DNA of 64,000 nt from Dehalococcoides mccartyi 195. GTDB lineage: Bacteria; Chloroflexota; Dehalococcoidia; Dehalococcoidales; Dehalococcoidaceae. The position numbers and the translations under genes were made by a program. Of the stretch, positions 1-8,075 are shown one piece after another. The stretch's first letter is position 1. Each line of letters begins with the position of its first letter. The stretch is taken from positions 434,001 through 498,000 of the forward strand of contig NC_002936.3 in the NCBI RefSeq assembly GCF_000011905.1, in the 5' to 3' direction. The notes below the pieces were generated by a model. The model ran no database searches. It was given only the letters and a program-made list of their open reading frames with translations, and was not told the DNA's origin.

Positions 1-284
1 TCTTTTACCGAACACAGGTCAAAAACCATCTGCTCCGGTTTGGTAAACGGGGCAATCTCCTTCAGGGTGTCTTCAAATGCGTCAATAGGTACGGATATCA
101 CCAGACAGTCCATTTCGGTCAGCTGGTCAGGCTGGGTAATCACCTGAGAGCCTAAGCGGCTGGCTACGGGTGCAAGTTTGGAGGGGTTTCGCCCCCAAAG
201 CCAAACCTGATGTCCGTTTTCCGTAAGGAAGCGGCTGAACCACTGTCCCATCTTGCCGCTGCCGCCCAGTATGCCTATTTTCAT
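1..284 (-). CDS. tyrA: Prephenate dehydrogenase, N-terminal part (cut by window edge)
   Basis: This is the last visible gene of the aro operon and it runs off the left edge, so only about 94 N-terminal codons are seen. The protein opens with [20 protein letters not shown], a dinucleotide-binding beta-alpha-beta with the GGSGKMG glycine pattern typical of TyrA. Later segments such as QLTEMDCLVISVPI match the Rossmann half of prephenate dehydrogenases. The family oxidatively decarboxylates prephenate to 4-hydroxyphenylpyruvate on the way to tyrosine. The ATG at 284 overlaps the pheA stop in an ATGA junction, which fixes the start and implies translational coupling. The catalytic C-terminal domain is not visible, so cofactor preference cannot be judged. 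Confidence 0.88.
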   Translation of the reverse strand, partial: MKIGILGGSGKMGQWFSRFLTENGHQVWLWGRNPSKLAPVASRLGSQVITQPDQLTEMDCLVISVPIDAFEDTLKEIAPFTKPEQMVFDLCSVK

Positions 285-1357
285 ATTCGTTTTTTCATTT
301 TGGGGTAAGACCCAAGCACTTTCATAAATATAACATGGTCTTCGGCTTTTGCCAGCGCCTGTTTAATGTTTTCGTCCTGGCGGTGGCCTTCTATATCCAG
401 GTAAAAGTTGTACTCCCAGGGTTTAAGGCGGGTGGGACGGGATTCCAGCTTGGTCATATTTATTTTTCTGGAGGCCAGTTCCTTTATGAAGTCATACAGC
501 GCCCCGGCCTCATGTTTGACGGCGAAGACCACCGAAGTTTTATCATTGCCGCTGGGTGCGGAATCCTGCTTGGCAAGGACGAAGAAACGGGTGTAGTTGT
601 TTATATTATCCTCTATTTCCCGTTCCAGCACTTTCATATTATAAATTACGGCCGCTCTTTCAGAGGCGATGGCCGCCCCGTCTAAAAGGTGTTTTTCTTT
701 AATCATTTTGACACTGCCGGCGGTATCGTAGGCCGGTATCAGCTCTGCCCGCAGGTGTTTTAAAAATGACTGGCATTGCCCCAGTGCCTGGGGGTGGGAA
801 TAAATGGTTTTTACCCCTTCCAGAGTGGTTTCGGGGTTGGCTATCAGACAGTGGGAAACCCTTAGCTCATGTTCGGCGGCAACCATAAGGTTAGAATCAA
901 ACAGCAGGTCATAGGTGCGGGAAATAGAGCCCTCAAGTGAGTTTTCCACCGGCACTACCGCAAAGCGGGCCATTCCTTTTTCCACTGCCTCAAAAGCCCC
1001 GTCCAGCTGTTCGTAAGGCAGGGCGAGGGTGTTGGGGCCGAATATTTTCAGGGCAGTTTCCTCACTGTAAGCACCGGCCGCTCCCTGAAAGGCTACGGTG
1101 AACCGCTGCTGTTTCTTGGATATAAACAGTATTTCCTGGTACAGGGATTCAATATCCTGCGGGTCAAGACCCAGAGACCGGGCCAGTGACTGAACCCTGT
1201 TTAAAACCTCTGATTCACGTGAGAGGTCCTGAACAGGGGAGTTAGTTTCTTCTTTGACTTTGCCTATCTGGTCGGATACCTCAAGCCTCTTTGCCATCAG
1301 CTTGACCAGCTCGGCATCCAGTTCATCTATCTGTTTGCGCAGGTCTGAAAGGTTCAT
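281..1357 (-). CDS. pheA: Bifunctional chorismate mutase / prephenate dehydratase
   Basis: This 358-residue protein should convert chorismate to prephenate and then to phenylpyruvate. Residues 1-85 form an AroQ-type helical chorismate mutase ([20 protein letters not shown]). Residues 87-265 are the prephenate dehydratase, starting [15 protein letters not shown] and including the [10 protein letters not shown] segment with the catalytic TRF. Residues 270-355 form an ACT domain with the ESRP motif, which in this family binds phenylalanine for feedback inhibition. The length fits the family. The start overlaps the aroC stop by four bases and the stop overlaps the tyrA start, so Phe and Tyr branches are made from one message. 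Confidence 0.96.
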
Positions 1358-2448
1358 TGTTTTATTACCCTCGGTATCATTCCGGCTCTCAGCGCCAGAT
1401 CAGCCAGCACTATACAGGTCATAGCTTCCACTACGGAAACTGCCCTGGGTACAATGCAGGTATCATGGCGGCCGCGTATTTCCAGACTGGTATTGGTCAT
1501 GGTATCAATATTTACGGTAGGCTGGGATAAAGATATGGAGGGGGTGGGTTTTACGGCTACCCTGAACTGAAGCGGCATACCGTCTGAGATTCCGCCCAGT
1601 ACACCGCCGCATTTGTTGCTGGTGGTGCGTATGTGGTTAGCCTGAATACTAAAAGGGTCGTTGTTTTTTGAACCGCGCAGGCGTGAAGCTTCAAAACCTG
1701 CCCCGAATTCCACCCCTTTTACCGCCGGAATGGCAAACATGGCTTTGGCCAGTTCGCCTTCCAGAGTATCAAACACCGGCTCTCCCAGACCAACCGGCAG
1801 ATTAAGCCCTAAGCACTCTACCACCCCGCCCAGACTGTCACCCTCTTCGGCGGCTTGCTGGATAAGTGCCAGCATTTTCTTGGTGGCTGTAAGGTCAGGG
1901 CAGTTTACATCACTCTGGCTGATATTCTGGCGGATATCTTTGGTTTTGGGCAGTTTAGCCACTATGCCGCCCAGTTCGGCGGTATAGCCAATCACCTCAA
2001 TACCGATAGTGGAAATAAGTTTGCGGGCAATAGCCCCGGCCATAACGTGTCCGGCGGTAATCCGCCCGGAGAAACGCCCTCCGCCCCGGAAATCATTGAA
2101 CCCGCCGTATTTTACAAAACCGGTAAAATCCGCATGCCCCGGCCTGATTTTGCTGCGGGTGCGTTCATATTCGCTTGAGTCTATATTTTTATTCCAGATA
2201 ACCAAGCAGATAGGTGCGCCGGTGGTGAAGTTGTTGAGTATCCCGGAAAAAATTTCTATCCGGTCATCTTCGCAGCGGGGGGTGGCATGGGCTTTGGCTC
2301 TGGATTTACGTTTGTCTACTTCCACCTGGATTTCATCTACATTTATGGCCAGGCCTGCCGGCACGCCGTCAATAACTACTCCCACGCAGTCTCCGTGGCT
2401 TTCACCGAAACTGGTAATCTGAAACAGTTTTCCCAGACTGTTAGACAT
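1354..2448 (-). CDS. aroC: Chorismate synthase
   Basis: The 364-residue product should perform the last common step, removal of phosphate from EPSP to give chorismate, using reduced FMN. Visible family signatures are [14 protein letters not shown] near residue 15, the block [15 protein letters not shown] followed by [15 protein letters not shown] around 100-135, and [11 protein letters not shown] near the C-terminus. Length is normal for the family. It overlaps aroA upstream by 8 bases and pheA downstream by 4 bases. Nothing in the sequence shows an attached flavin reductase domain, so FMN reduction must be supplied elsewhere. Confidence 0.97.
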
Positions 2449-3703
2449 CTTTTATTACCTTTCCGCCGAGGCTTTCCAGTTTCTGCCAGAAATCAGGATA
2501 AGTCTTGGATACACACTCAGCCTCTGAAATACAGGTTTCCCCGGTAACTGCACCCAGTGCGCCGAAAGCCATGGCAATGCGGTGGTCTCCCAAGCTGTCA
2601 ATCTCCGCGCCTCTGGGCATTCCGCCTTCTATAATCAGGCGGTCATCTTCTTCGGTAACGTTTATCCCCATGGCGCTTAGCCCCTGGCTTACCGCCCGGA
2701 TACGGTTAGATTCTTTAATACGTGCCTGACGGACTCCGCTTAAAATACTTTGTCCTTTGGCACAGGCAGCGGTTATGGCCAGAGCGGGCAGCAGGTCTAT
2801 AGAGTGGGTAAGGTCTGCCTGTATGGCGGTGAGCGGTTTGGGGCTTACCTTTACCCAGTTTTGTCCGCTTTCTACTTCCGCTCCCATCTCACTGAGGAAT
2901 TTTATCATTATGCGGTCAGCCTGAAAACTTTCTGTATCCAGGTTGGATATAAACAGCGGGGCTGCAATAGCCCCCAGTGCCAGAAAGCTGGAGGCCGAAG
3001 ACCAGTCTCCCTCTACCCGGTATCTGGCAGGCAGGTAGGGTTGAGGGGGAATACTTATTTCCTGCCAGTCTATAGATGTATAGGCTTTTATACCAAAGCT
3101 TTCCAGCGTTTGTTTGGTCATTTTCAAATAGGGCAGTGAAGCCGGCGGGGTGGCCAGATGAATTTCAAGCCCGCTTTTACAGGCAGGCGCCATAAGCATA
3201 AGGGCCGAAACATATTGGGAGCTTATATTGCCGGGCAGGCTGACCTTTGAACGGGTTATTTCACCGCCCTTGATGACAGTGGTATTGCCGCGGGTTTCTA
3301 TTTCTATGCCAAGCTGGTGCAGGGCTTGAATAAGGGGCAGCATAGGGCGTCTCATAAGGGAATGCCCCGCCAGCAGGCGGCACTCAAAGGGCAGTCTGGC
3401 ACATACAGCTGACATAAAGCGCAGGGTGGCGGCAGATTCGCGGCAGAAGAGGTTGCCGGCCGGTTTTTTAAAGGTATTGCCGGTAAGCTGCCAGCTTTCA
3501 GCCTCTGCATCAGTATTTATATCTATGCCCAGCCCTGAAAGAACCTGTCTGCTTGCCAGGGTATCGTCTGCAGCCAGCGGGCTTATAATGCGGCTTTGGC
3601 CGTTTGCCTGGGCAGCCGCTATCAAGCCGCGTATGGTGTAGCTTTTTGAAGAAGGCACGGCAATTTCTCCGCCGGGCAGGCTTTTATCCAGACGTATTTT
3701 CAT
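2441..3703 (-). CDS. aroA: EPSP synthase (3-phosphoshikimate 1-carboxyvinyltransferase)
   Basis: This 420-residue enzyme should join shikimate 3-phosphate to PEP. The motifs [14 protein letters not shown] (residues 18-31), [14 protein letters not shown] (about 87-100), [16 protein letters not shown] (about 153-168), the [12 protein letters not shown] segment and [14 protein letters not shown] near the C-terminus are the usual substrate-binding blocks. In the second block, the position that is Gly in the common GNAGT motif appears to be Ala, a pattern more like the so-called class II enzymes. That assignment is my alignment by eye. It overlaps aroK upstream by 20 bases and aroC downstream by 8. 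Confidence 0.96.
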
Positions 3704-4214
3704 ATTCCCTCAGTTTGTCTTCTATTTCTTCGCAGACTTCATGGCATGATTTGTTATGGGTGGAAATAGTAATATTAGCTGCCGCCCGGTATAAAGGCAA
3801 CCGGCTTTCCAGCAATTTTAACATTTTATCCAATCGTTCGGCATTGTACAAAGGGCGGTTGGTATGGTTTTTCAGCCTGGCCTCCAAATCTTCAGGCCGG
3901 CTTTCCAGATAGATTACCAGACAGTTTAGACGCATAAGGCTGAGATTAGGGGGGCGCATTACTATACCGCCGCCGCAGTCTATAATCTGGCCTGATTGCC
4001 GGCAGAGGTCTTCCAGTACCCGGCTTTCCATCTGGCGGAAATAGTCTTCGCCTTTTTCTTTGAATATGCTGATTATGCTTAAGCCTTCGCGTGTTTCTAT
4101 GCAGGCATCAGTACTGACCAGCGTTTTACCCAGCCTTTCAGAAAGCAGTTTGGATACGCTGCTTTTGCCGGCACCCATAAAGCCTATCAGGGCAATATTA
4201 TTTTTTATTTTCAT
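3684..4214 (-). CDS. aroK: Shikimate kinase
   Basis: This 176-residue P-loop kinase should phosphorylate shikimate with ATP. The Walker A sequence GFMGAGKSS lies at residues 11-19, the shikimate-binding Asp follows in STDACIE, and the GGGIVMR motif that contacts substrate is present near residue 83. A lid region with basic residues ([10 protein letters not shown]) is also visible. Size matches single-domain AroK/AroL enzymes. The start ATG lies inside the end of aroE (17-base overlap), and the stop lies inside aroA, as expected for tightly coupled operon genes. Confidence 0.95.
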
Positions 4215-5058
4215 CTAAGGCCAGCTCTGCTTCTTTCATCATTAACCGGAAAGGGGCTTTCTGGTTTGTCCAGATTTCAAATGACATAGCCCCCTGCCAG
4301 ACCAGCATTTCCAGCCCGTTTATTATTCTGGCGCCTCTCTTTTCGGCATCTTCCAGCAGGCGGGTTTTGCAGGGATTATAAATAGCATCTATGACGGTCA
4401 GGTCAGGGCGGAGGAGGCGGGGGGGTACAAGGCTCTGGCCTGCCAGATTTCCCATGCCCACCGGCGTGCAGTTCACGATAACATCAGTATCGGCTAAGGC
4501 TTCTTCCAGATTTGTATCGTTCAGTTCCAGCCCCTGGGTTTTGCCGCTGAGACGCAGGCACATTTTACCAGCCAAATCTTTGGCTTTTTCCTCCTGGCGG
4601 GCAAGTACAGTCAGGTGTCCGCCCAGATTGCAAACAGCCAGGGCAATAGCATGGGCGCTGCCTCCTGCCCCCAGCAGGGTAAAACGCTGCTTGGCGGGGG
4701 CTATACGGTTATGCTCCAGCAAGCGCACAAACCCGCCGAAGTCGGTGTTATACCCCTTCAGCCGGCCGTTTTCATTCACAATGGTATTTACCGCACCTAT
4801 CTTTTCGGCGGCCGGGTCAAGGCTGTCAATATACTTTATGACTTCTATTTTATGGGGTATGGTCACATTTAAGCCGCGTATATTTAAAGGCCCCATGCTG
4901 GCAATTACGTTTTGCAGTTCCTCAGGTTTGGCCGCAATGGTCAGATACAGGTAATCCAGCTTGCAGTGTTTAAAGGCTGCATTCTGCATGGCAGGTGAGA
5001 CGGAGTGACTTACCGGGAAACCAATAAGCCCGAATAATGCATCAGGTATGGTTTTCAT
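4198..5058 (-). CDS. aroE: Shikimate dehydrogenase (NADP)
   Basis: This 286-residue protein should reduce 3-dehydroshikimate to shikimate. The N-terminal substrate domain has the [13 protein letters not shown] motif (residues 18-30), NVTIPHK with the catalytic Lys near 67, and GYNTDFGGF with the catalytic Asp near 105. The NADP domain opens with [15 protein letters not shown] near 128. The C-terminal [14 protein letters not shown] segment closes the substrate site as in known AroE enzymes. It overlaps aroD and aroK on its two sides, so it is cotranscribed with both. Confidence 0.95.
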
Positions 5059-5710
5059 AGTTCACTGACCGGTAGATTTCAATCATCTGCGCCAGGGTCA
5101 TCTGACCTGATGCTGACTGATTGCTGTCATTCAGGCTGGCGTAGGTAAAAGGGCTTCCGGCCAGCGGGCAGAGTATGCGGCTCAGAATGCCCAGATTCCC
5201 CATAGCAAAAGCGACAATCTTTTTATCCGGTATCTCCTTTATCAGATTAAGCAGCTTTATATTATCATTTATTGAGGTAGCAGTGGTAATTACCTTATAT
5301 ATATCCGCCGGGTAGTTGAGCATATCCTTTACCAGTGTCTTCAAATCACCGGCGGAGGGAGTGTCAGCAAAATTATGGTGGGACACCAGACACTTTGATT
5401 GCGTTCTGAGCCGCTTAAGTACTTCACCCAGATGGGGGGTGGAGTACTCAATATCCAGCATAAATGCACCGGCTGCGGCGGCTTTTTCAAGCAGCCCTAT
5501 CCGTTCTTCTTCGCTGCCGCTAAAACTGCCCCCTTCGGCAGACCTGCGGCAGGTGGCCATAAATGGTTTATCAAGCATAGCCGCAGCTTCCCGCCAGCTT
5601 TCACCCAGCAGGTCCAGCCTTAGTTCATAAAAGGCCGCACCTTCGCTTTTTTTCAGGCTTTCGGCCTCCGGCAGCCGGGTGATTACGCAGCAGACGGGCG
5701 GGTTTTTCAT
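5042..5710 (-). CDS. aroD: Type I 3-dehydroquinate dehydratase
   Basis: This 222-residue protein fits the type I dehydratase, a TIM barrel that forms a Schiff base with dehydroquinate. ELRLDLL near residue 28 matches the first barrel strand signature. The catalytic His is in CLVSHHNF near 110, and the Schiff-base Lys is in IYKVITTATS near 138. The SGQMTLAQM segment near the end contributes the substrate-closing loop. It is unrelated to the small type II (AroQ) enzyme. The start overlaps the aroB stop by four bases, and the end overlaps aroE by 17 bases. Confidence 0.94.
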   Translation of the reverse strand: MKNPPVCCVITRLPEAESLKKSEGAAFYELRLDLLGESWREAAAMLDKPFMATCRRSAEGGSFSGSEEERIGLLEKAAAAGAFMLDIEYSTPHLGEVLKRLRTQSKCLVSHHNFADTPSAGDLKTLVKDMLNYPADIYKVITTATSINDNIKLLNLIKEIPDKKIVAFAMGNLGILSRILCPLAGSPFTYASLNDSNQSASGQMTLAQMIEIYRSVNYENHT

Positions 5711-6786
5711 TTCATCTCCTCCAGTATGGAAATGACGTCTGCCCTCAAAATGTTTTCAGCTATCAAAGGTTCTCCCGGCCTTTTCAGGAGGATGAAACGG
5801 ATACGTCCGTCAGATACCTTTTTATCATGGTGCATGGCATCTATAATTTTTTCGGGGTCTATATCTTGGGGGCGGGTGGGCAGACCGAAATCAGCTATCA
5901 GTTTTTCCAGCCGCAGTACAGTCTCATTTTCACATAAACCCAGTTTTACCGAAAGCCTTGAGGCAAAGCACATACCTATAGCTACCGCTGCCCCGTGGCT
6001 CTGGCTGAAAGAAGAAGTGCTTTCCAAAGCATGCCCCAAAGTGTGACCGAAATTCAGTATGTTTCTGATGCCGCGGTCAGTTTCGTCCTGGCAGACTATA
6101 CCGGCTTTGATGGCGGCAGTCTGGCTTATTATATCTTCCATTATCTCCGGAGAGCGGTCTTTGATAGCCGGGGTGTTTGTCTCAAGCTGCTTGAACAGTT
6201 CACTGCTGCCAATAGCCGCACTCTTTATTATTTCCGCCATGCCGCAGGCAAACTCTTTTTCGGGCAGGGTTTTCAGGCAGCTTATATCTGAAATAACCAG
6301 CCTCGGCTGATAAAAACTGCCCACAATATTTTTGATTCCGCCGTGGTTGACTGCCACTTTGCCGCCGATACTGGAATCTACCTGTGACAGCAAACTGGTA
6401 GGCAGGTGTACCAGCGGAACGCCCCGCTGGTAGGTGGCCGCCACAAACCCGCTCAGGTCGCCTATGACCCCGCCGCCCAAAGCCAGTATGGGAGTATTCC
6501 TTTCGGCAAAGTGGTTTATCAGCTGGGGATATATATGGGAAGCCATATCCAGTGACTTATGTATTTCGCCCTCAGGCAGTTCCAGAAACAGGCTGCCTAT
6601 GCCCTTTGATTCAAGGTGCTTTTTCAGCTTTTTGCCGTAAAGCCTGTTTATATCTATATTGGTTATGACCACTACCCGGTCACAGGGTATGGCCTGCTTC
6701 AGCAGGTCTGCTGTTTCAGCCAGCAAATCACTTCCTATGAGTATCTTGTATTCACGCCCGCTTAGATTAAGCCCTATACTTTTCAA
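5707..6786 (-). CDS. aroB: 3-dehydroquinate synthase
   Basis: This 359-residue enzyme should cyclise DAHP to 3-dehydroquinate using NAD and a divalent metal. The NAD-binding glycine loop and active-site block GGGVIGDLSGFVAATYQRG lies near residue 103, followed by PTSLLSQVDSSIGGK. Metal ligands are recognisable as the Glu of GMAEIIK, the His residues of NFGHTLGHALE near 245, and the His of SHGAAVAIGM near 263. Length is normal. It is the second gene of the operon, 19 bases downstream of the DAHP synthase gene. Confidence 0.96.
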   Translation of the reverse strand: MKSIGLNLSGREYKILIGSDLLAETADLLKQAIPCDRVVVITNIDINRLYGKKLKKHLESKGIGSLFLELPEGEIHKSLDMASHIYPQLINHFAERNTPILALGGGVIGDLSGFVAATYQRGVPLVHLPTSLLSQVDSSIGGKVAVNHGGIKNIVGSFYQPRLVISDISCLKTLPEKEFACGMAEIIKSAAIGSSELFKQLETNTPAIKDRSPEIMEDIISQTAAIKAGIVCQDETDRGIRNILNFGHTLGHALESTSSFSQSHGAAVAIGMCFASRLSVKLGLCENETVLRLEKLIADFGLPTRPQDIDPEKIIDAMHHDKKVSDGRIRFILLKRPGEPLIAENILRADVISILEEMK

Positions 6787-6805: not shown

Positions 6806-7861
6806 TTAGTGTTTTTTCACCAGTTTGTTTATCTGGCGGCAGGTATTTATAAGCTCTTTCAGTTCCGGCGGAGTAATCATCTGCGAAGCATCCACCAGAG
6901 CCTCTGCCGGGTTGGTATGTACCTCAATCATCAGTCCGTTAGCCCCGGCGGCCATGGCGGCACAGCTCATGCTGTATATCAGGTCACGCCGCCCGGTGGC
7001 ATGGCTGGGGTCAACCATTATGGGCAAATAGGTTTCCTTCAGGGCTACCGGCACGGCTGCCAAATCCAGGTTGTAGCGGGTGAAGTTTTTGCCTTTGCCC
7101 ACCGGCACTATGCCTCTTTCGCATAATATTATATCCTTATTTCCCTCTGCGGCTATATATTCGGCAAAAGAAAGGAATTCTTCCATGCTGGCCCCGAAGT
7201 GGCGTTTGTACATCACCGGTTTGCCTTTTCTGGCCACTGTGGCCAGCAGGTCCTGGTCATACATATTGCGTGAACCCACCTGGAGTATATCTACATATTC
7301 GGCAACCAAATCCGCCTGGGATTCGCCCCGTATCTCGGTCATTACCGCCATCTCAAAGCGTTCACCGGCCTCTTTCAGCCAGGACAGGGCTTCGGTGGCT
7401 TCATCCTTGCCGGCAGAGCCCAGCCCCTGGAAAGAGTGGACAGATGAACGGGGTTTGTAAACGCCGCCTCTGAGTATCTGGGCACCTGCCATCTTTGCCC
7501 CTTCAGCTATCTTCATCAGGGCTTCCTTACTTTCCACTGCACAAGGCCCGGCAATGAAGACCGGCTCGTCCCCGCCGATAGTTATATCTTTTACTTTTAT
7601 TTCACGGGTCAGCCCCTCAGCCTGCCACAGGTTTGAGTACTCGCGGCTGATAAGCTTGTAAGGGGTTTCTACCATACGGGCTTCCTTGACGCCGGGCAAG
7701 CTGGAAAAGTAAGCAAACGGGATTGATTTTTCATCTCCTATCAGGCCGATAATAGTCCGGAACTCTCCCTTTGAGATGTCGGTCTTGAGACCGCAGCGGC
7801 GAACTTCGGCAATTACGTTTTCTAGTTCTTCCGGGGTGGCATCCTTTTTCATGATAATCAT
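6806..7861 (-). CDS. aroF: DAHP synthase, type I-beta with N-terminal ferredoxin-like domain
   Basis: This is the first enzyme gene of the operon and the committed step of aromatic synthesis, condensing PEP and erythrose 4-phosphate. The N-terminal 75 residues form a ferredoxin-like regulatory domain, as in Thermotoga-type enzymes, in which it mediates allosteric inhibition. The barrel carries AGPCAVES near 105, QVGSRNMYDQDLL near 195, PVMYKRHFGAS near 215 and DPSHATGRRDLI near 285. An AGGAG sequence lies about 12 bases before the ATG at 7861. The gene sits directly behind the attenuator at 7901-7929, so its expression should depend on charged Tyr and Phe tRNA supply. Confidence 0.95.
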   Translation of the reverse strand: MIIMKKDATPEELENVIAEVRRCGLKTDISKGEFRTIIGLIGDEKSIPFAYFSSLPGVKEARMVETPYKLISREYSNLWQAEGLTREIKVKDITIGGDEPVFIAGPCAVESKEALMKIAEGAKMAGAQILRGGVYKPRSSVHSFQGLGSAGKDEATEALSWLKEAGERFEMAVMTEIRGESQADLVAEYVDILQVGSRNMYDQDLLATVARKGKPVMYKRHFGASMEEFLSFAEYIAAEGNKDIILCERGIVPVGKGKNFTRYNLDLAAVPVALKETYLPIMVDPSHATGRRDLIYSMSCAAMAAGANGLMIEVHTNPAEALVDASQMITPPELKELINTCRQINKLVKKH

Positions 7862-7900
7862 TGTTTGCTTTCTCCTTTGCTTTTTATACCCGTATAAATC

Positions 7901-7929
7901 AAAAATCCTCCCGTTGCCTGGGAGGATTT
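7901..7929 (-). terminator. Attenuator terminator before aroF
   Basis: On the minus strand a perfect 10-bp stem, AAATCCTCCC with GGGAGGATTT, encloses a 7-base loop. The stem runs into a short T run. It lies about 40 bases before the aroF start and therefore inside the operon leader, so it should stop transcription before the first structural gene unless the competing antiterminator forms. Confidence 0.88.
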
Positions 7930-7982
7930 CTAACTTACTAACTGAGGGTTATTGATTTTTTAGTAAAACGTTATCTCCCAAG
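7917..7982 (-). promoter_or_regulatory. Antiterminator pairing of the aro leader
   Basis: CTTGGGAG (minus strand, 7982-7975), which overlaps the last three codons of the leader peptide, can pair with CTCCCAGG (7924-7917), which is part of the terminator's first arm and loop. The pairing is 8 bp with one G-T wobble. A 7-bp hairpin, TTACTAA with TTAGTAA, fits in the loop between them. The two structures are mutually exclusive, as in trp-type attenuators. A ribosome stalled at the Tyr-Tyr-Tyr-Phe codons would leave the upstream arm free, while one at the stop codon would cover it. Confidence 0.78.
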
Positions 7983-8036
7983 CAAACTTGTCTTGGTAAA
8001 GTAATAATAGTTCTTAAAGGATTTAACGTTTAACAT
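7971..8036 (-). CDS. aro operon leader peptide (21 aa, Tyr/Phe-rich)
   Basis: A 22-codon frame (ATG at 8036, TAA at 7971) encodes a 21-residue peptide with Phe at 7 and Tyr-Tyr-Tyr-Phe at 10-13. Five of 21 residues are the end products of the operon. The ATG begins only about 9 bases after the -10 element, so the transcript is probably leaderless or nearly so, and no Shine-Dalgarno is seen. The stop codon lies directly beside the antiterminator arm. Position, codon content and the downstream terminator together support a regulatory peptide. There is no direct evidence of translation. Confidence 0.82.
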   Translation of the reverse strand: MLNVKSFKNYYYFTKTSLLGR

Positions 8037-8045
8037 ACTTGCATG

Positions 8046-8075
8046 ACAATAGCATAGCTGAAAAGGGTTTGTCAA
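8046..8075 (-). promoter_or_regulatory. Promoter of the aro operon
   Basis: On the minus strand TTGACA (8075-8070) is followed after 18 bases by TATTGT (8051-8046). The -35 is a full consensus match and the -10 matches four of six. The predicted start site is near 8039, a few bases before the leader peptide ATG at 8036. A TATAAT at 8098-8093 has no good -35 and is a less likely alternative. Confidence 0.72.

Follow-up and report, generated by a model that had tools for sequence, protein, structure and literature searches.

A predicted Tyr/Phe leader-peptide attenuator upstream of the aroF–tyrA operon in Dehalococcoides mccartyi and other Dehalococcoidia

The leader region and the downstream operon

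The window analysed here, a stretch of 64,000 nucleotides, belongs to the genome of Dehalococcoides mccartyi 195 (a single contig of 1.47 Mb), and it was compared with relatives from Dehalococcoides, Dehalogenimonas and other Dehalococcoidia. Upstream of aroF, the minus strand carries a promoter and a leader ORF of 21 codons, together with an antiterminator arm and an intrinsic terminator (Table 1). The genes downstream follow the order aroF-aroB-aroD-aroE-aroK-aroA-aroC-pheA-tyrA and overlap or are separated by short gaps, indicating an operon continuous down to tyrA. The identities of aroF and tyrA were confirmed by NCBIfam; pheA encodes a chorismate mutase/prephenate dehydratase. The pathway therefore begins with DAHP synthase and leads to phenylalanine as well as to tyrosine, the same amino acids that the leader would sense. 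The neighbouring rpsL is divergent, on the plus strand, and no gene lies on the minus strand upstream of the leader, so that there is no other transcript on which the terminator could act.

A first-pass annotation, made from the sequence alone, had described a consensus -35, a 21-codon frame with Tyr-Tyr-Tyr-Phe at codons 10–13 and a perfect 10-bp terminator stem with T run before aroF, all of which were found at the positions given in Table 1. The 8-bp antiterminator arm then proposed, CTTGGGAG, there placed about 16 bases past the Tyr/Phe codons, is present at nt 7982–7975, 15 nt 3' of the last Phe codon, but the helix is really of 11 bp, including one G-U (TTGCTTGGGAG/CTCCCAGGCAA). The protector hairpin P1 (CCAAG/CTTGG) is an additional element, absent from that account, and the leader stop codon is one base from the antiterminator 5' arm (arm 2).

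Transcription is predicted to start at about nt 8040–8038, 2–4 nt 5' of the leader ATG (nt 8036), and no Shine-Dalgarno was seen in the sequence before this codon; for both reasons, a leaderless or almost leaderless ORF is probable. A short spacing between the -10 and the ATG (5–12 nt) was observed in 27 leaders with a called promoter, that of the window included, a count restricted to sensibly spaced cases, the automatic promoter search being unreliable for about one third of the leaders (no promoter or a spurious one). The terminator of the aroF leader was not listed by a generic terminator scan, which misses this site because the T run is partly paired inside the stem.

The leader folds with a z of -4.84, none of 200 shuffles being equally stable. 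An ORF containing four aromatic codons in a row arose 257 times in 20,000 dinucleotide shuffles and a comparable terminator three times, and no shuffle had both. Chance is excluded by the folding, by the shuffles and, above all, by the comparison of relatives reported below, which confirms that the described leader features are real.

Table 1. Position of the leader and operon features in the window, with similar leaders from other Chloroflexota classes in the last row
Feature	Position (nt) or locus	Strand	Remarks
-35 hexamer TTGACA	8075-8070	minus	relatives have a -35 of the TTGACA type at the corresponding position
Extended -10 TGcTATTGT	8046..8054 (TG 8054-8053; TATTGT 8051-8046)	minus	spacer 18 nt
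Leader peptide ORF MLNVKSFKNYYYFTKTSLLGR and stop TAA	ATG 8036 to TAA 7971	minus	
Regulatory codons Tyr10-Tyr11-Tyr12-Phe13 (TAT TAT TAC TTT)	8009-7998	minus	
Protector hairpin P1 arm 1, CCAAG	7996-7992	minus	from sequence; P1 covaries in relatives
Protector hairpin P1 arm 2, CTTGG	7982-7978	minus	overlaps the antiterminator arm
Antiterminator 5' arm (arm 2) TTGCTTGGGAG	7985-7975	minus	within the final codons of the leader ORF
Antiterminator 3' arm CTCCCAGGCAA	7924-7914	minus	overlaps the terminator arm and loop
Terminator 5' arm AAATCCTCCC	7929-7920	minus	10 perfect pairs with the 3' arm
Terminator 3' arm GGGAGGATTT	7912-7903	minus	pairs with the terminator 5' arm
T run of the intrinsic terminator	7905-7901	minus	
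aroF, type-I DAHP synthase, first operon gene	6806..7861, ATG 7861	minus	TIGR01361, NF006421
aroB, aroD, aroE, aroK, aroA, aroC, pheA	281..6786	minus	names assigned from recognisable sequences
tyrA start (prephenate dehydrogenase)	1..284	minus	NF006409; runs off the window
Very short aromatic ORF and terminator, other Chloroflexota classes	L223-L225, L231, L233, L235, L236, L239, L240, L134, L140, L152, L153		

Conservation and covariation among orthologous leaders

Upstream regions of 76 aroF orthologues (≥62% identity) of Dehalococcoidia were collected from whole genomes and from a contig collection; since the set includes near relatives, these do not represent 76 independent cases. By inspection, an aromatic-rich ORF, a hairpin, a GGGAGG-type arm and a T-tailed terminator of the CCTCCC...GGAGGG type were recognised in all 76, with leader ORFs such as MLTDTTLSKFYYTYFTFTWRTKCAGEASP and MIVKSTWQYYYYYYANPSRLGGFDVPSN. 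In the weakest leader (L010, genome G040) the ORF was recognised by eye, and the covariance model described below matched only with E = 0.22. The alignment of orthologous leaders that had been suggested along with the initial description showed that frame, aromatic codons and terminator are retained in the relatives and that the stems undergo compensatory changes. Judging from these sequences, the switch is conserved across the bacterial order of Dehalococcoides.

In an alignment based on sequence only, the compensatory changes included CTTGGG/CCCAAG, CTTGAG/CTCAAG, CTCGGG/CCCGAG, CCTGGG/CCCAGG and CTGGGG/CCCCAG. For the antiterminator helix, 89.6% of the cells were paired in 36 diverse rows. 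Double changes numbered 26, compared with 9.2 on average after shuffling; none of 500 shuffles attained the covariation score, and slid controls were 41–69% paired. When all 76 leaders were considered, pairing was 87.2% and 78 cells carried double changes, the shuffle maximum being 44. P1 and the terminator, in the same 36 rows, were paired in 82.4% of the cells, with 43 double changes (shuffled mean 16.3), a covariation score that none of 500 shuffles reached and slid controls far lower. The shuffles are uncorrected for relatedness, which the slid controls retain, and these agree. P1 is strong and covarying in the relatives, whereas it is weak, with 5 bp, in the window and in this genus.

Tyr accounts for 14.8% of the leader residues in the orthologue set, Phe for 9.1% and Trp for 3.6%, codons for Trp being often present as well in the leaders of relatives. 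Synonymous variation was observed in the sensor codons (TAT/TAC 174/134, TTT/TTC 146/44). No convincing aromatic leader was found upstream of the DAHP synthases of Bathyarchaeota, Omnitrophota and Nitrospirota bins, and no aromatic ORF with a terminator in 18 upstream regions of other DAHP synthases of the same class (about 42–47% identical). This latter set is to be read as a chance control and not as evidence of absence, because the model search did find leaders at other non-orthologous DAHP synthases of this class. As a separate observation, locus L014 matches RF01749, the pan motif of Rfam, with 48.1 bits at nt 1085–1171, minus strand; the motif is on the opposite strand, about 300 bases before the G015 homologue of aroF.

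Ribosome position, proposed mechanism and competing explanations

For 75 leaders, folding was computed on the nascent RNA as far as the terminator loop, with a ribosome placed at each codon in turn; its footprint was assumed to extend from 18 nt 5' to 12 nt 3' of the codon in the A site. In this model the antiterminator had a mean probability of 0.82 with an aromatic codon in the A site and of 0.46 with any other codon, and of 0.22 with the ribosome at the stop; aromatic codons favoured it more than the others in 72 of the 75 leaders, and none of 2000 label shifts was as extreme. Between 55 and 81% of the positions from 39 to 18 nt 5' of arm 2 are occupied by aromatic codons, and a ribosome placed there leaves the antiterminator free in the model (P 0.77–0.93); the aromatic share drops to 1% at -12, where coverage of arm 2 begins. 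In the window, a ribosome at codons 10–13 is predicted to leave the antiterminator free, and one at codon 16 or further on, the stop included, to block it, in accordance with the initial suggestion that the arm is freed by stalling at the Tyr/Phe codons and covered by a ribosome at the stop. At equilibrium and with no ribosome, the window's nascent RNA prefers the antiterminator (P = 0.998) and P1 has only 5 bp, thus making termination here dependent on a translating ribosome that covers arm 2, or on kinetics. The model suggests that, given the weak P1, a ribosome at the stop is likely the main route to termination in this genus, and that the stronger P1 of most relatives can bring termination too.

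On this comparative evidence the leader is very probably a ribosome-mediated transcription attenuator sensing charged tRNA-Tyr and tRNA-Phe, a mechanism of the classical attenuation class. Transcription would begin just 5' of the leader ORF, with the ribosome trailing the RNA polymerase. With charged Tyr- or Phe-tRNA in short supply, the ribosome would wait at codons 10–13, covering the CCAAG arm and leaving arm 2 free to pair with the antiterminator 3' arm once this is made, so that no terminator would form and transcription would read through from aroF and aroB down to pheA and tyrA. When Tyr and Phe are plentiful, the ribosome would reach the UAA beside arm 2 and cover it or, after its release, the P1 hairpin would hide part of arm 2; in either case the terminator would form and transcription would end near nt 7900. 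The attenuator parts, their conservation, covariation and spacing are observed, and from them we infer that termination and its relief occur in the cell, with both Tyr and Phe acting on the attenuator. The proposal of the first-pass annotation that charging of the two tRNAs controls the whole operon is supported by the comparison and by the gene arrangement down to tyrA.

A terminator and an antiterminator would look identical if they were switched by a riboswitch, a T-box or a protein such as TRAP, the ORF being incidental, and T-boxes do exist in the same genome, at trpE. However, no Rfam family was found at gathering threshold in the whole window, the leader has no T-box sequence, and conservation extends to the ORF, to the aromatic codons in it and to the spacing between these and arm 2, none of which a ligand-binding RNA would require; this makes the explanation very improbable. 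Even less credit can be given to a functional small protein encoded by the leader ORF, with the hairpin acting as an ordinary terminator or mRNA stabiliser: the similarity of the C-terminal part in many leaders (WRTxCAWG), readable as protein conservation, coincides with the P1/arm-2 RNA, other lineages change the peptide and keep the helices through compensatory changes, the leaders differ freely in length and, beyond the aromatic block, in sequence, and an ordinary terminator would have no upstream minus-strand gene to end.

It is also conceivable, although unlikely, that the switch is real but senses in practice one amino acid, Phe only or Tyr only, as the aroR leader of Corynebacterium glutamicum, with Phe-Tyr-Phe, is reported to answer to Phe and not to Tyr limitation (PMC11802643). 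In the window, however, three Tyr codons precede a single Phe, Tyr outnumbers Phe in the leader set (308 to 190) and is contained in every leader, and waiting at any of codons 10–13 frees the antiterminator in the structural model, all of which speaks against a single sensed amino acid.

Known systems, related sites and breadth in Chloroflexota

The closest precedent for such a Tyr/Phe attenuator is the aroR-aroF system of C. glutamicum, reportedly responsive to Phe and not to Tyr (Neshat et al. 2014, via PMC11802643). By description, the two are alike in having an aromatic leader peptide before a DAHP synthase operon and ribosome-mediated attenuation; unlike the actinobacterial system, the Dehalococcoides leader is dominated by Tyr and the operon extends from the DAHP synthase gene as far as pheA and tyrA. 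In line with the initial statement that no description was known in this group, our literature search, in which subscription journals were little covered, found no earlier description of leader-peptide attenuators in Chloroflexi or Dehalococcoides, the C. glutamicum system being a near precedent. According to a survey of 2010, leader-peptide systems had been shown in no phyla other than Proteobacteria and Actinobacteria if the atypical leader of ermC is set aside, and the survey adds one case in Firmicutes (PMC2965389); an earlier survey of Actinobacteria assigns tyrosine control to T-boxes (PMC1262725), and Dehalococcoides is unmentioned in a paper tabulating predicted attenuators before tyrA operons (PMC1173090).

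Enterobacterial pheL-pheA and trpL (Trp_leader in Rfam) share with the present leader the product-cognate codons, the P1/antiterminator/terminator set and the ribosome as the switch, but pheL-pheA, of Proteobacteria, responds to Phe only and targets pheA, whereas in Dehalococcoides the whole chorismate-to-Phe/Tyr operon is downstream. The window matched Rfam Phe_leader (RF01859) in the right stretch and strand with 24.2 bits (E = 0.046); this is far under the gathering cut-off of 55 bits, and membership in that family was rejected. T-box leaders, including that of Dehalococcoides trpE (97.4 bits in the same genome; PMC2494555), likewise read tRNA charging through a terminator/antiterminator choice, but bind tRNA directly without translation, unlike the aroF leader with its coding frame. 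A T-box identity (RF00230) for the aroF leader was discarded, no covariance-model match being found in the window.

A covariance model of the attenuator element was built and used for searches. In this genome, besides the aroF site (E 2.7e-10), which is among its source sequences, a second site was retrieved outside the window (G000:C1:868721-868850; L198, L201) with E 4e-4; it is conserved in the two other species of the genus, and stronger matches occur in Dehalogenimonas and others. No match was found on plasmids. The second-site leader reads MRYTGYAYFYFMFTGRTLCALSGAVDK, and in most other genera outside Dehalogenimonas its block contains Phe only (KFVFTRRT, KFIFTRRT). It precedes genes for an AMP-forming acyl-CoA ligase, a LIV-type ABC transporter and a phenylacetate-CoA ligase, which suggests an operon for uptake and activation of aryl acids as putative substrates.

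In relatives, model sites precede hisC, a TrpX-like transporter operon, other DAHP synthases and trpE. A leader with Trp-Trp-Trp, MVKAYSNITPVRNTNNWWWRNMLLHVREDIA, and a terminator were observed before trpE in another Dehalococcoidia family (L191 of G303, about nt 1410–1608), where trpE would be under the same switch design with Trp codons, as opposed to the T-box of Dehalococcoides. Strong model matches with YYTxFxF leaders lie before an octopine-dehydrogenase-like gene in L202 (G015) and L155 (G028), followed in L202 by a TrpX-like ABC transporter. Tyr/Phe leaders were also seen before hisC-type aminotransferase genes in L170 (G032) and L208 (G012), in the latter with two genes between, hinting that HisC of this type serves aromatic amino acids too.

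Outside Dehalococcoidia, a terminator was present in 9 of 20 freshly sampled DAHP synthase upstream regions of Chloroflexota, and all nine carried a short aromatic ORF 5' of it, for example MSHFYFYDSPA or VMTRNPGYYYWFYRGMT. An earlier sample of other Chloroflexota classes had given further aromatic leaders, among them MARLDSTCAYYFYRFFWYYAAVSTRGRVVTPPD and MNTKWFYG, the latter with consecutive Trp, Phe and Tyr. Judged by ORF and terminator, these look-alikes are candidates and serve as leads. We lean towards a broader reading, in which leader-peptide attenuation would be a main, phylum-wide control of aromatic amino acid metabolism in Chloroflexota, and the switch of Dehalococcoidia would have been copied to, or kept at, several operons (aro-pheA-tyrA; acyl-CoA/phenylacetate-CoA ligase with LIV transporter; hisC; TrpX-like transporter; trpE), its specificity changing by codon swaps (Tyr/Phe, Phe only, Trp) with the helices constant, beside T-boxes and with Tyr truly regulatory.

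The attenuator family adds a deep-branching phylum to the leader-peptide systems and offers a clearly covarying candidate for an attenuator that senses Tyr; it also suggests that codons have been swapped between related switches. For the organohalide-respiring Dehalococcoides, it predicts the operons that respond to aromatic amino acid supply, the putative aryl-acid operon included, and the element is ready as an RNA family for Rfam.
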